From Melioribacteraceae bacterium (GTDB taxonomy: Bacteria; Bacteroidota; Ignavibacteria; Ignavibacteriales; Melioribacteraceae): 64,000 bases of DNA. Positions 1,726-7,522 of the stretch are shown here, one piece after another (positions within the stretch are counted from its first letter, which is position 1; each line of letters begins with the position of its first letter). The stretch covers positions 248,001-312,000 of the forward strand of contig JAEINS010000001.1 in the NCBI GenBank assembly GCA_016342755.1. The letters run 5' to 3'. The notes beneath the pieces are model-generated. The model did no database searches, was not told the origin of the DNA, and saw nothing but the letters and a program-made list of their open reading frames with translations. A program made the translations under genes and the position numbers.

Positions 1726-1914
1726 GCCTAACAAGTGCATCAAGCCGACAGCGTTTTCGCATTCGGCATTTTTAAATTTTTCAAGGTAGTTGCTCCGTTT
1801 TGGGTAACTTGTTCGGCTTTGTTCTACTAAACAAAATTTTTTAAATCATTAATGTTTGTGCTTCTATTCGGTAGCCTTGTAATGGGCTGCGGGTTAAGCA
1901 CAACGCCGTTATAC
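1726..1914 (+). repeat. attC-like cassette recombination site 1
   Basis: The left box GCCTAAC (1726-1732) fits RYYYAAC and is followed by a stretch ending TCAAGCCGAC, much like the start of the aadA1-type attC. The right box is GTTATAC (1908-1914), preceded by GGGTTAAGCACAACGCC. The segments inside the boxes pair imperfectly (GTGCATCAAGCCGACAGC with GGGCTGCGGGTTAAGCAC), giving the long imperfect hairpin expected of attC. At 189 bp it is longer than the 57-141 bp usually quoted for attC sites. It shares GCAACGCC/GTTATAC-type ends with the two other sites in the window. Confidence 0.65.
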
Positions 1915-1936
1915 ATCTTAAACATTCGGAGAAAAT

Positions 1937-3159: not shown

Positions 3160-3744
3160 ATGAAGACCATTCTAGTGAATCTAACCGGGAATAGGGATAA
3201 TTTCGAGAATAATTTTTGTGCCAATATTATAAATAATTGTAAAGTAAATATTGATTTATGTGAATTAATGGGTTTAAGTTTGTTTGAATCAGCGAATTTA
3301 ATAAACAACTATGATTTTGTATTAGTTGTGGCACACGCTAGCAATAATAAACTTGACAATTGTATTATTGATACGGGTTTGAACCTAAATCAAAGCATTC
3401 CTGTAAGTATATTAAATATGCTAAACTCCCCTTCAGTATTATCTCAAATTCTGGGTAAGAATACAAAAAAATACATTCTTTTTTATTGTGCTTGTAGCGC
3501 TTTATCTGCTGAACTTATTACATCTGCAACTGATGACCCAAATTGCATTGGTATTATTTCAAGCAAAGATGAAGTATCCGCATCAGAGTTTGCTCATATT
3601 TCAAAAATAATTGAAGAAATTCATAATAAATTTATAGATAATGTTATTTCAACCAAAGCAATCATTGATATTTTGAATACTGTAAATATGCCGAATTTAT
3701 TTTATTGTGAAAACACTATAAATGTTGAGGAAACCGATGTATAA
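3160..3744 (+). CDS. Hypothetical protein with possible caspase-like fold
   Basis: 194 residues from the ATG at 3160, preferred because TGGAG lies six bases upstream. An in-frame ATG at 3145 overlapping the previous stop would add five residues. Two conserved-looking strand ends stand out: FVLVVAHASNNK with His59 and YILFYCACSALSAE with Cys110 and Cys112. Hydrophobic strand-His and strand-Cys about 50 residues apart is the arrangement of the His/Cys dyad in CHAT and other caspase-fold proteases. This is pattern recognition only; the rest is not recognisable. The stop codon overlaps the left box of an attC site (GTATAAC, 3739-3745) that the insertion sequence has split. Confidence 0.6.
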   Translation: MKTILVNLTGNRDNFENNFCANIINNCKVNIDLCELMGLSLFESANLINNYDFVLVVAHASNNKLDNCIIDTGLNLNQSIPVSILNMLNSPSVLSQILGKNTKKYILFYCACSALSAELITSATDDPNCIGIISSKDEVSASEFAHISKIIEEIHNKFIDNVISTKAIIDILNTVNMPNLFYCENTINVEETDV

Positions 3745-3798
3745 CCAGTTATTCCGGTTAAAGTCAACAAGGATCAGATAATCAAGATTTTATAGAAA

Positions 3799-3816
3799 GA
3801 GGCATAGTGATGCCTC
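3799..3816 (-). terminator. Hairpin downstream of the IS110 transposase
   Basis: A seven-base perfect stem, GAGGCAT/ATGCCTC with an AGTG loop, lies inside the element about 90 bp beyond the transposase stop. On the minus strand it is followed by TTTC rather than a long T-run, so termination is plausible but not certain. It could also be a structural element of the IS end. Confidence 0.35.
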
Positions 3817-3902
3817 ATATGACAAAAAAGTTCTTTGACATATTGATAATAATTCAAGATTTAGTTTTGGAGAGAGGTTAAGAATGATCTCGAAAAAATC
3901 CG

Positions 3903-5247
3903 TTAGTTACCGGATTCTGCTTTTTGCAGTTTAACAAAGTGAGACTTTTTTTCCTCTTTCCTTTTATTTCCTTGCCTTCTTGAAACCGGTGCATTAGAAT
4001 CATAAGATTGATAACGCCTCGATTTACTAATCGTAATTTTCTTTGATTTAGATTCGCATTTACGTTGATTTGCTTTATCAATCTCCGGATTAAAGTTTTG
4101 TTTGTTTTTTAACATTCCAAAAACAATTCTGAGTATTTTATGCATAACACAACCAAGTGCTGCCATTTTGGACATCCCACGTTTAACATGTTTCTCGTAG
4201 ACTTCTTTTATTAAAGGATTGCAGTTGATGGCTGTTCTGGCAACATTAAAAAGTATAAGCCTTGGTTCACGTCTGCCTTTTTTGCTCATTCTCACTGCTG
4301 CATGGCCATCACCACTGCTTTTAAGTGTTGGGTGAAGGCCAAAAAATGAAGCAAGCTTTTTAGCCGAAGAAAATCTCTCAATGGTTCCGATTTCAAGAAT
4401 TAGTCCAACGGCAGAATAAGTTGCTATTCCATTGAAGCTTTCAAGTATTTTTACTTCTGGAAGATTGCATCCATCAGACATTAGCTTTTCATGGTGGTTA
4501 ATGGTTTTATCAAGTTGAAGTATCTGATCAACAGTAGCTTTAATTATGGTTTCTGTAATCTCATCATTGGATGATGAAATAGATAGTTTTGCTTTAGCTA
4601 TAAGACCTTCAGCTTTTTCACGGCTTACATATGGAATTTTAACAAGCGAAGAGACGTTAGCACGGGAAAGGCGTTTGGCAGTTGGATACTTTCTAAGAAC
4701 AGATAATAACCAATTGGGAGTTGAGTGTTTGCAATAAGTGAGTACTTCAGTATTTGATGTATAAACAATAGCTTCGAGTTGGTTAAGAAGCTGCACTCTT
4801 TGTTTAACCAGTAATTTTACAAAACTCCATTGTTTGCGTAATGATGAATAATAACTGTTAGTACTCGGCTGAATTTTGTTTTGGTGATTAATTAAATATT
4901 CTGAGATGTTCTTAGCGCTTATTTGGTCTGTAATAGCCCTATTCATAACGGCTTTTTTAATTGTGGCTGACACCATGTGGAATGAGTCTGAGAACTTGGA
5001 TATTCAGTATTTCACCAAGTGTATTAAACCAATTGTTTTCATAACCTCCGGTTGACTCAACAGCAGAGAGGATAATAGAACTGGGATGTTCTTTATGAAA
5101 GTCGACAAGAATTGAGTATAACTTATTATGACCTTTGAAAGTATCGTCGAGCTGGAAATTATTCTCAATAATATTTTTTGAAGAATCGAGAATTACAAAA
5201 TCGGCATAGCCTTTTGAAACATCACAGCCTAAGAAATATTTTTTCAT
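3903..5247 (-). pseudogene. IS110-family transposase, frameshifted
   Basis: The 5' frame (5247 to 4957, 96 aa) carries the RuvC-like start GCDVSKGYADF with the first Asp and AVESTGGYE with the Glu. It then runs out at IPHGVSHN-stop. The 3' frame (from about 4976 to 3903) continues with VSATIKKAVMNRAITDQIS and the Transposase_20 part (FFGLHPTLKSSGDG, supplying the Ser nucleophile region). The overlap at PHGVS/MVSAT shows that one protein was broken by a net +1 shift near 4965-4972. The usual TD-x-x-D pair reads TDQIS, so the last acidic residue is Ser. Both features suggest an inactive enzyme, unless the shift is a sequencing error. Confidence 0.8.
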
Positions 5248-5462
5248 AAGTATCTCCTACATTATGTTATGGAGAAATATCGGGTATCATCATACTTGTG
5301 GATATACGGTTTCAAAAGAACCAGGTTATTCCACGACTTTAGCCCGAAGGGAAGGAAGAAACTGGTTAACAGGTTCAAATGACCTAGCCGCTCACCCTTC
5401 TCTTCCCAACAGTATCCAATTATTATCAATAAGTCTATTTTTTTGATCAGTTTAAACATACA
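5248..5462 (-). ncRNA. Candidate bridge RNA region of the IS110 element
   Basis: IS110-group elements encode a bridge RNA in the flank before the transposase. In transposase orientation this flank has, in order: ATTGG (5416-5420), matching the left target half GATTGG; TAACCAG (5362-5368), matching the complement of the right target half across the CT core; and GGAATAACCT (5323-5332), nearly identical to the element's own end GGAATAACT. The second motif sits in the loop of a stem formed by 5349-5358 and 5397-5407. This follows the target-loop then donor-loop order of known bridge RNAs. It is an inference from short matches. Confidence 0.35.
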
Positions 5463-5642
5463 AGCCAATCAAGGCGGACGCCGCTTTTCAGCGCGGCATT
5501 GTTCTAATTCTATTGTTTGGTTGCAAAACCAAATTGCTCTTTGAAGTATGTAGTATTAAAAAACATTTTTATAAATAAAAAGTTGTTGGTATTGTTTGGC
5601 GTTCTTGTTCTGGGGCGCCGCTTATCGGCAACGCCGTTATAC
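5463..5642 (+). repeat. attC-like site 2 (right part; left box at 3739-3745)
   Basis: The site begins with AGCCAATCAAGGCGGACGCC and ends with GGGGCGCCGCTTATCGGCAACGCC plus the box GTTATAC (5636-5642). The two arms pair as GCC-AAT-AAG-GCGG-CGCC with an extra base, the attC-like imperfect stem. Its left box GTATAAC is now 1.7 kb away at 3739-3745, overlapping the stop of the caspase-like gene, because the IS110 element sits between them. Joining the two halves gives a site of about 190 bp, like sites 1 and 3. Confidence 0.65.
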
Positions 5643-5683: not shown

Positions 5684-6064
5684 TTATTGAAGAGAAAGAG
5701 AAACTTTTAGAGCTTTATCAACTTCAAGCATTTTGCTTTTATCCAGAGTCCCAAATTTTGTTATTAGTCTTTGGTCTTTGTCAACGGTTCTTATTTGACC
5801 ACAATCAACATAGCTGTCTTCAGATAATCCACCTTCACCTTTTTTAAGAAATATCATTATTGGCAGCGGTTTTGTAATTTCTTTTACACTTGAGATTGGA
5901 GCAATAATTGTAACTGGGCTGAATTTATTTCCTATATCATTTTGGATTATAACAGATGGTCTGGCTTTGCCAATTTCTTTGCCAATTATCGGATCAAGAT
6001 TTACTAGATAAACATCGCCACGCAGAAGTGGGAAAATTATTCCGGTTTTATTCTTTATCTGCAT
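5684..6064 (-). CDS. PemK/MazF-family toxin
   Basis: 126 residues. LLRGDVYLVNLDPIIGKEIGKARPSVIIQND is the PemK/MazF N-terminal signature (the RGDVY strand, then the G-K-A/x-RP-x-V/I-I/VIQND loop). SPVTIIAPISSV and VDCGQIRTVDKDQRL complete the beta-barrel core. This family is a sequence-specific endoribonuclease toxin. It overlaps the antitoxin stop by 17 bp, with GAGGAG inside the antitoxin gene, so translation is coupled. It is encoded against the direction of the array within a cassette bounded by attC-like sites 2 and 3. Toxin-antitoxin cassettes are thought to stabilise such arrays. Confidence 0.85.
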   Translation of the reverse strand: MQIKNKTGIIFPLLRGDVYLVNLDPIIGKEIGKARPSVIIQNDIGNKFSPVTIIAPISSVKEITKPLPIMIFLKKGEGGLSEDSYVDCGQIRTVDKDQRLITKFGTLDKSKMLEVDKALKVSLSLQ

Positions 6065-6302
6065 ATTTCCACTCCTCTTGAGATTTTAGATAATATTCAT
6101 AGTTTGCTTTGTAGCCAGCTTCGAGCTCATTTTCAATTTTCTCTTTCTCAATTTGGTCAATATAATTTTGTAAAGCGTTTCGTGCGATCTCACTGATTGT
6201 CAATTTTGTTTGCTTTGAAATTTTATTGACTTTATCAGATAATTCCGAGTTCACAAAGAAACTGAGTCTTTCTTTTTTATTTGTTGATTGTATAGAAGGC
6301 AT
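6048..6302 (-). CDS. Ribbon-helix-helix-type antitoxin
   Basis: 84 residues from the ATG at 6302, preceded by AAAGGAG. A longer open frame to 6410 exists, but its first 36 codons run into the recombination site and lack an SD sequence. The N-terminal KKERLSFFVNSELSDKVNKI strand and helices (about residues 9-50) look like a MetJ/Arc-type ribbon-helix-helix DNA-binding domain. The acidic C-terminal tail (about residues 52-84, EWKYADKE at the end) would bind the toxin. Directly upstream of the MazF-type toxin and probably autoregulating the pair. Confidence 0.75.
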   Translation of the reverse strand: MPSIQSTNKKERLSFFVNSELSDKVNKISKQTKLTISEIARNALQNYIDQIEKEKIENELEAGYKANYEYYLKSQEEWKYADKE

Positions 6303-6397
6303 AAAAACTCCTTTTTGCAATAATGTTGTCGTAAATATGTGCATAAATATGGGTATAATCAAGTGTATAATTAGGTGCGTATTAATGTGATGTTCCG

Positions 6398-6622
6398 GTA
6401 TAACAAGCAAATCAACACGGACGCCGTAATGTAAGCTGCATTTATCTGTTCTTAAGTTTAGTTAAGTAAACAACATTGCTGTTCGGCAGTTGTGAAATAA
6501 ACTAAATTGTTGCAGCCGGTGCGTACGATGAAAGTTACGCACCGGCTGCTAAATTACTGGCATTGTGCTTTTAATCGGCATTCCAGTGTTGGGGCATCGG
6601 GTTATTTGCAACGTCGTTATAC
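6398..6622 (+). repeat. attC-like cassette recombination site 3
   Basis: The left box GTATAAC (6398-6404) is followed by AAGCAAATCAACACGGACGCC. The right part ends CATCGGGTTATTTGCAACGTC plus the box GTTATAC (6616-6622). The arms GCAAATCAA-CGGACGCC and GGCATCGGGTTATTTGC are near-complementary. The 225-bp site also contains a strong internal stem, GCAGCCGGTGCGTA with TTACGCACCGGCTGC, near 6514-6553. It is the largest of the three sites. Confidence 0.65.
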
Positions 6623-6999: not shown

Positions 7000-7235
7000 A
7001 ATAGGTATAACCCCTTTAATAAGTAGCTATTCAAGGGATAAAAAATCCCTACGCAATAAATAGAGTTTTTATGCATGATAAGTTTTTTGAAAAAATGATT
7101 ATGTTACTTCTCAAATTATATCGTTAGATTCTAAAGGCGAACCAAACCCCTTTACGGGCTTACTGTTAATTTATTACAGTTGTCATAACTGACTATCCCA
7201 GATATTAAATAGGTCCCGACAAGTCGGGATAACGT

Positions 7236-7265: not shown

Positions 7266-7383
7266 GTAACTAAAGAACTAAAGCTTATTTTCAGCCTAAA
7301 AATCAAGAAAAATTTGTAGGTTGGTTTTAAATTTAGCAGAGCAATTTGCAAATACAAATTGGGTATCAAAAAAATGAGGTCGA

Positions 7384-7522
7384 TTGCATTTAGTCAAGAG
7401 TCGCCAGGGCACACTTTCTTGCAATTTGCATTTAGTTAAGGGGTGCCAGGGCAAACTTTCTTGCAAATTGTATTTAGTTAAGGGGTGCCAGGGCAAACTT
7501 TCTTGCAATTTGCATTTAGTTA
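7384..7522. repeat. 42-bp tandem repeat, three full copies plus a partial
   Basis: Units start at 7384, 7426 and 7468, with a 13-base partial copy from 7510. Each begins TTGCATTTAGT and ends ACTTTCTTGCAA. Units 2 and 3 are almost identical, and unit 1 differs at several positions. Function unknown; copy number may vary between strains. Confidence 0.85.

Follow-up and report, generated by a model that had tools for sequence, protein, structure and literature searches.

The left part of the 64,000-nt stretch of Melioribacteraceae DNA analysed here (referred to as the window; contig C12:248001–312000 of a 4.73-Mb genome of 56 contigs, labelled G000; other genomes, contigs and loci likewise carry G, C and L labels) is occupied by gene cassettes up to about position 7011, and the attC recombination site of one of these cassettes is split by an insertion sequence (IS) of the IS110 family. 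This locus raises the question of how such an element finds an attC site. We consider it highly probable that it does so by RNA guidance, with an RNA encoded next to the transposase gene of an IS110-group element reading out the target.

The interrupted attC comprises the R'' box GTATAAC (3739–3745, plus strand) and, beyond the element, a remainder (5465–5642, plus strand) that runs up to the R' box GTTATAC at 5636–5642, R'' and R' being the usual names of the attC boxes and GTTRRRY the motif of R'. Both the left box and the continuation CCAATCAAGGCGGACGCC from 5465 had been placed correctly by the initial annotation, whose claim of an IS110-family element inside an attC is borne out by the ends of the element, the core dinucleotide copies and the box complementarity described below. 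Since R'' (GATGTATAAC, 3736–3745) is the 10-nt reverse complement of its own cassette start (GTTATACATC, 1908–1917, plus strand; the cassette begins at T1909), and since the R'' boxes of the next two cassettes (starting at 5636 and 6616) are complementary to their own starts over 11 and 12 nt, respectively, this box is unlikely to be a chance occurrence. The cassette thereby shows both hallmarks of an integron cassette, i.e., an R'' complementary to its own first bases and an R' box at the other end.

The ends and core of the element were set by aligning the two copies in this genome with relatives. The element is 1,714 bp long (3749–5462, transposase gene on the minus strand), is flanked on both sides by the dinucleotide AG (3747–3748 and 5463–5464; CT on the transposase strand), and splits the attC directly 3' of the R'' box, with the base C3746 next to the box also belonging to attC. 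A first assignment of the core as AC (top strand) was dropped because AG is what the copies in genome G008 show. Read along the transposase strand, the left end (LE) begins with TGTATG, and the right end (RE; 3749–3770, minus strand, ...TTGACTTTAACCGGAATAA) terminates in GGAATAA, of which variants exist. The longest near-terminal inverted repeat (18 nt, 94%) has its arms at 3837–3854 on the RE side and 5418–5435 on the LE side, i.e., 88 bp from RE and 27 bp from LE. The second full copy (C53:84–1827, same genome) is 99% identical and occupies the same position in a different attC site. Joining the flanks after removal of the element yields an empty site of 188 nt (GTATAACC-AG-CCAATCAAGGCGGACGCC...ACGCCGTTATAC) that is built like an uninterrupted attC of genome G035 (L056; TAACCAGCCAATCAACCCGACCGCC), so that the earlier proposal that removal rebuilds an attC holds. 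An uninterrupted version of the cassette itself, for which the initial annotation had suggested looking, did not turn up among the 96 genomes of the order, where a search with its 199-aa open reading frame (ORF) matched one genome, the window's own.

Guide RNA and choice of target

Upstream of the transposase gene, a bridge RNA was predicted in 20/20 aligned elements (5279–5428, minus strand, in the window). The consensus fold of these 20 sequences consists of two stem-loops with internal loops, in which 13 of the 31 pairs show changes on both sides; Rfam returned only one miRNA match, far below its cut-off. In the first loop, a left guide precedes CT (TT or CC in L066 and L086) and a right guide precedes AG. 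In the elements of the window's genome, this target loop reproduces the R'' core and the spacer of attC, i.e., GTGAGCGG-CT as left guide plus core (5386–5395, minus strand, from the comparison of guides and flanks) and TAACC-AG as right guide plus core (5362–5368, minus strand), the latter reading the R''-side target and also being an inverted repeat (I11). The C53 target (GTTGAGCGG-CT-GGTTATGTG) matches the left guide at 6/6 positions and the right guide at its first five, and the right guide is matched at its first five positions by the window target (GATTGG-CT-GGTTATAC) as well; with the guide written as GGTTA, this match is found in the window copy, the C53 copy and L065.

Of the 30 rows compared across relatives, 16 represent elements whose guides differ and whose two flanks can both be read; in these, guide and flank were identical at 142 of 192 positions, a value reached by 0/20,000 permutations (mean 60.2, maximum 103). 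An earlier and smaller run (14 elements of 23 rows) had given 126/168 identical positions against a permutation mean of 53.8 and maximum of 94; the 30-row run adds L070, L076, L078 and L080, the left ends of the first three of which were not found. The choice of target follows the guide over the insertions found. Among elements with the right guide GGTTA or TGTTA, 8/8 distinct LE junctions (the window, C53, L065, L066, L086, L197, L198 and L201) continue into attC, and an R''-like box, with one base differing in L199, precedes 6/6 RE junctions (the window, C53, L065, L086, L056 and L199). For the other guides (22 rows, including four G008 copies), 0/20 readable right flanks begin with the R''-like NGTTA. 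The search for the same IS in attC-like sites of related genomes, proposed by the initial annotation, thus gave attC-guided relatives in attC, and no copy of this IS, which could have contradicted that annotation, was found outside attC.

As read off the alignment, the second loop appears to copy the element's own RE, and variants of the end recur in this donor guide, i.e., GGAAAAA in L067 and L068, GGATTAA in L071, and GGAACAA in L073 and L082, each variant being present in the guide as well as in the end. In the mechanism we propose, the bridge RNA would be made from LE, upstream of the transposase gene; the right guide of its target loop (TAACC-AG) would copy the attC R'' core and the left guide (GTGAGCGG-CT in the window) the attC spacer up to its TCA. 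The recombinase would join the CT core of the circular element to the CT on the bottom strand of attC, placing the element immediately behind R'' and its transposase gene in the orientation opposite to that of the cassette. Expression of the RNA, formation of the circle and catalysis would proceed as described for IS621 and ISEc21.

Several observations weigh against guidance of this kind. Among the 26 rows whose left flank can be read, seven match at no more than three of the six left positions (none in G008_L055, two each in G008_L054, L074 and L085, and three each in L068, L071 and L080); the four G008 targets match the left guide at 4, 2, 0 and 4 of 6 positions, and the window target itself at 4/6. 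The agreement between donor guide and RE is only partial in L085, and the single-sequence fold of the window RNA is not more stable than shuffles (z −0.65). With regard to the sites, L086 sits in a shortened attC, several junctions are contig ends with one side readable, and the G035 ends (L056, L197, L198 and L199), being contig ends, may belong to two elements. Moreover, an LE-like end in genome G149 (L125), a remnant without readable bridge RNA that was left out of the LE junction count, continues into sequence that is not clearly attC.

This L125 locus (minus strand, near 2650–2780) is a short remnant, seemingly a degenerate RE and LE with almost nothing between them. The LE pattern search was too loose with one mismatch, and only exact matches were followed, two of which (L169 and L172) were discarded as elements for having neither IS context nor a readable guide loop.

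Insertion into attC could also arise if the element read the folded attC hairpin, as the integrase and group IIC-attC introns (which are retroelements with a different mechanism) do, instead of a short linear sequence. The attC-guided insertions found in attC are in line with such recognition, and the folds of four attC sites exceeded their shuffles in stability (z −3.6 to −6.7). The joined 188-nt site gave z −3.6 against 100 mononucleotide shuffles, yet R'' and R' were left unpaired in its fold. However, these folds are not specific, because a control stretch composed of R'' and the IS right end gave z −4.2 in the same test. Pairing with a linear target, on the other hand, explains both the position and the orientation of the insertions, and relatives with the same RNA scaffold reach other targets by the same rule. 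We consider hairpin recognition very unlikely.

In a transposase tree (29 rows, 27 of them different; L086 fills only 26% of the columns, and L083 was dropped for lying on the same contig as L056), the attC elements fall into two well-supported clades, i.e., the window, C53 and L065 on the one hand and G035, L066 and L086 on the other. They were grouped as one in 52% of 200 bootstrap trees, and the attC label requires two changes on the tree against a mean of 5.5 for shuffled labels, with 0/500 shuffles as low. These sequences are compatible with a single origin of attC targeting among these elements as well as with more than one.

Transposase, family assignment and known systems

The transposase gene of the window copy is broken into two ORFs on the minus strand, i.e., an N-terminal one of 96 aa (4957–5247), with an N-terminal Pfam match below the cut-off, and, in a different frame, a larger C-terminal one of 357 aa (3903–4976), with Transposase_20 over the Pfam cut-off and 120 bits for NF033542 (cut-off 140). 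Since the C53 copy has the same broken frame (96 + 357 aa), both copies are probably not self-mobile at present. The transposases of relatives such as L065, L051 and L053 form a single intact frame, L065 and L053 scoring 147 and 142 bits for NF033542, and in L065 and L056 the DEDD N-terminal domain and Transposase_20 are both above the Pfam cut-off. With both domains in one protein of its relatives, the element belongs to the IS110 family (superfamily). Its closest relatives among named records are found in Bacterium BMS3Abin04 (80%), Ignavibacterium sp. (59%) and Ignavibacteria bacterium (58%), and searches of the viral_contigs and plasmids collections gave no match. A relative at 52% identity (L075) lies in a genome titled Thermoplasmata archaeon, which may reflect transfer between domains or a wrong bin; a distant one (L060, 39% identity) was left out of the end analysis.

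Within the family, the position of the conserved two-loop bridge RNA, ahead of the transposase gene, is that of the IS110 group, and the element is therefore of this group and not of the IS1111 group already known for attC targeting. Like IS621 and ISEc21, it has an LE bridge RNA with target and donor loops and a short core, which is CT in the window element as it is in IS621. Bridge RNAs of the IS110 group have been published, and IS621 is described as targeting REP (repetitive extragenic palindromic) elements (PMC11208160), whereas the window element targets integron attC.

The initial annotation had named IS1111/IS110 elements together as known to target attC. This stands for the IS1111 group, of which elements at attC and their seekRNAs are described in PMC11187229 and PMC11616780, and it does not stand for the two groups as one lump, given the IS110-group anatomy found here. 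The IS1111-attC elements (ISKpn4, ISPst6, ISPa21 and ISPa25) likewise have a DEDD transposase of the IS110/IS1111 superfamily and are RNA-guided, but, according to PMC11187229, their guide RNA is encoded in a long non-coding region downstream of the gene and their subterminal inverted repeats of 11–13 bp lie about 7 and 3 bp from the ends, an arrangement that the window element does not have. That the element nevertheless belongs to this group (ISKpn4, ISPst6, ISPa21) and uses a downstream seekRNA is the least credible reading of all, since what it shares is the kind of host site, the enzyme superfamily and an inverted repeat near the ends (18 nt), while the 20 aligned elements carry their guide-bearing RNA on the upstream side of the gene, the repeat lies 27 and 88 bp from LE and RE rather than 7 and 3 bp, and the transposases read whole (n = 3) measure 435, 441 and 466 aa rather than the 330–350 aa given for IS1111 in PMC11187229.

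Other reports concern group IIC-attC introns, which are likewise mobile elements associated with attC (PMC7923331, PMC9229058), IS110-like elements within Shewanella integron arrays, none of them in attC (PMC9229058), and IS1111-group transposases in plant-associated cassettes (PMC11089894). No report of an IS110-group element targeting attC was found in the open-literature listings searched. The element represents a new variant within the bridge-RNA IS110 group, one directed at attC. A second branch of the RNA-guided IS110/IS1111 recombinases appears to have evolved attC targeting, by means of a guide that reads the R'' core, which cassettes must keep. The element family also constitutes a natural set of guides and targets for the rules of bridge-RNA recognition.

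IS right ends in other attC sites

The last 15 bp of RE recur in two cassette sites on contig C7 of the window's genome (TAACC-AG-TTATTCCGGTTAAAG-CCGACCGCC), where a neighbouring site is uninterrupted (TAACCCGCAGTACAAGCCGACCGC). The idea that this 24-bp match is a native attC type resembling the IS end by chance was abandoned when wider searches showed the IS end in attC. We see about an even chance that what deletion left of attC-guided IS110 elements was domesticated on three or more occasions in Ignavibacteria, RE now serving as the 5' arm of working attC sites and having passed as an attC allele into many cassettes.

The pattern of R'', core and RE (≤3 mismatches) was matched in 29 of the 391 genomes of the class, and exactly in 11; part of the 29 are chance matches, since the backward pattern matched at least 15 genomes, with one match each. 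The RE core search with ≤3 mismatches being too loose, only the 17 matches with ≤1 mismatch in genome G691 were followed. All 17 are preceded by an R''-like box (16 TAAC, 1 TAAT); 11 have the same deletion scar, 5 continue into the IS and 1 does neither. The scar consists of ~93 bp of RE with one endpoint, is 80–94% identical to the intact G035 IS (seven sites aligned), and is followed by a common attC half that ends in TAACRCGCCG-TTA in 5/8 aligned sites and in a variant thereof in 3/8. In one scarred site, bases 4–96 align at 90% to an intact IS end in G035, and bases 93–230, likewise at 90%, to another attC-like stretch of G035 that has no IS end. The bodies upstream of the 11 scarred sites, three of them taken from the copy of the same stretch in genome G017, gave no mutual blastn match at E 1e-3. 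Because one scar stands behind 11 unrelated cassette bodies, these sequences suggest that it moved with the cassettes and that the site is still used; the same pattern could also have come about through gene conversion among the sites or through a different route of cassette formation.

Such a site would result from insertion into attC followed by deletion of the LE side and the attC 5' arm, leaving R'', RE and the attC 3' half. Contig C30 of the window's genome, which begins with an internal IS piece fused to an apparent attC inner part and 3' arm, with no clear R' box, has the look of an intermediate in this process. In G149, 14 RE-like sites lie behind an AAC- or AAT-type box (a box required by the search), and 8/14 have a different 3' arm in common (loose pattern, ≤6/28 substitutions; L119 5618 is weak). 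By sequence, scar lineages exist in G691, in G149 (a second one) and in the window's genome (a two-copy one). Complementarity to R'' over ≥8 nt was seen in a stretch upstream of 16 of 37 listed right ends (three of the 37 being duplicates, L118 of L117); in 10 of the 16, this stretch directly follows CC, as at an attC end. Since the AAC-/AAT-type box was preselected in this listing and in that of G149, it is the G691 searches that test the box rule.

The reverse history, in which the 5' arm belonged to attC from the start and attC was the source of the RE of the IS, appears improbable to us. The scarred sites are numerous and resemble ordinary cassette sites, and 3' arms of the scarred type also occur without an IS piece (L142, L145, L163 and L166), as this history would have it. 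However, the same kind of RE is found in relatives with other guides and in other phyla, the scar is a long element-specific stretch of RE that includes a hairpin and has a single endpoint, and the RE piece is followed by the segment whose G035 counterpart lacks it. Base pairing of the IS-derived 5' arm with the 3' arm was not used as proof of function, because its scores were mixed (z −4.4 to +0.7, 10 sites) and this 3' arm is also found where the IS piece is absent.

If remnants of attC-guided elements have indeed been domesticated, the end sequence of a parasite became part of a host recombination site. Published IS remnants serving as attC arms were not found in the open-literature listings searched. 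The scarred attC are more surprising than the insertion itself, and raise the questions of whether integrases can use IS-derived arms and whether such elements drive attC diversity.

Two further observations concern these sites. Contig C109 of G017 (L117) and contig C164 of G691 (L118) have in common a run of three scarred cassettes, spaced identically (926 and 905 bp); as the two genomes are placed in different families, this points to either mis-binning or transfer. Sites that are otherwise alike (L126, L127, L128, L117, L134, L145 and L149) differ in having or lacking a small hairpin (ACTTGTCCCG...CGGGATAAC or variants of it).

Host array

The array is chromosomal and extends beyond the window, with further attC sites to its left (L008). 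Within the window, the cassette next to the interrupted site has an uninterrupted attC (6398–6622, plus strand), whose R'' is the one matching its own start over 11 nt. An integron integrase is encoded elsewhere in the same genome (C53:11731–12672; ORF of 318 aa, TIGR02249 454 bits, cut-off 265), with an attC ~1 kb away; the same family search gave matches in 14/14 control genomes, of which 0 exceeded the cut-off. No match to an integrase gene was obtained on C12, i.e., none adjoins the window array, which is, as far as the contigs show, an attC cluster without integrase.

On the minus strand, opposite to the array, the next cassette encodes a PemK/MazF-like toxin together with a ribbon-helix-helix partner (5684–6410). 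Finally, about three imperfect tandem copies of a ~60-bp unit containing GCCAGGGCAAACTTTCTTGCAA were seen by eye at 7375–7520.
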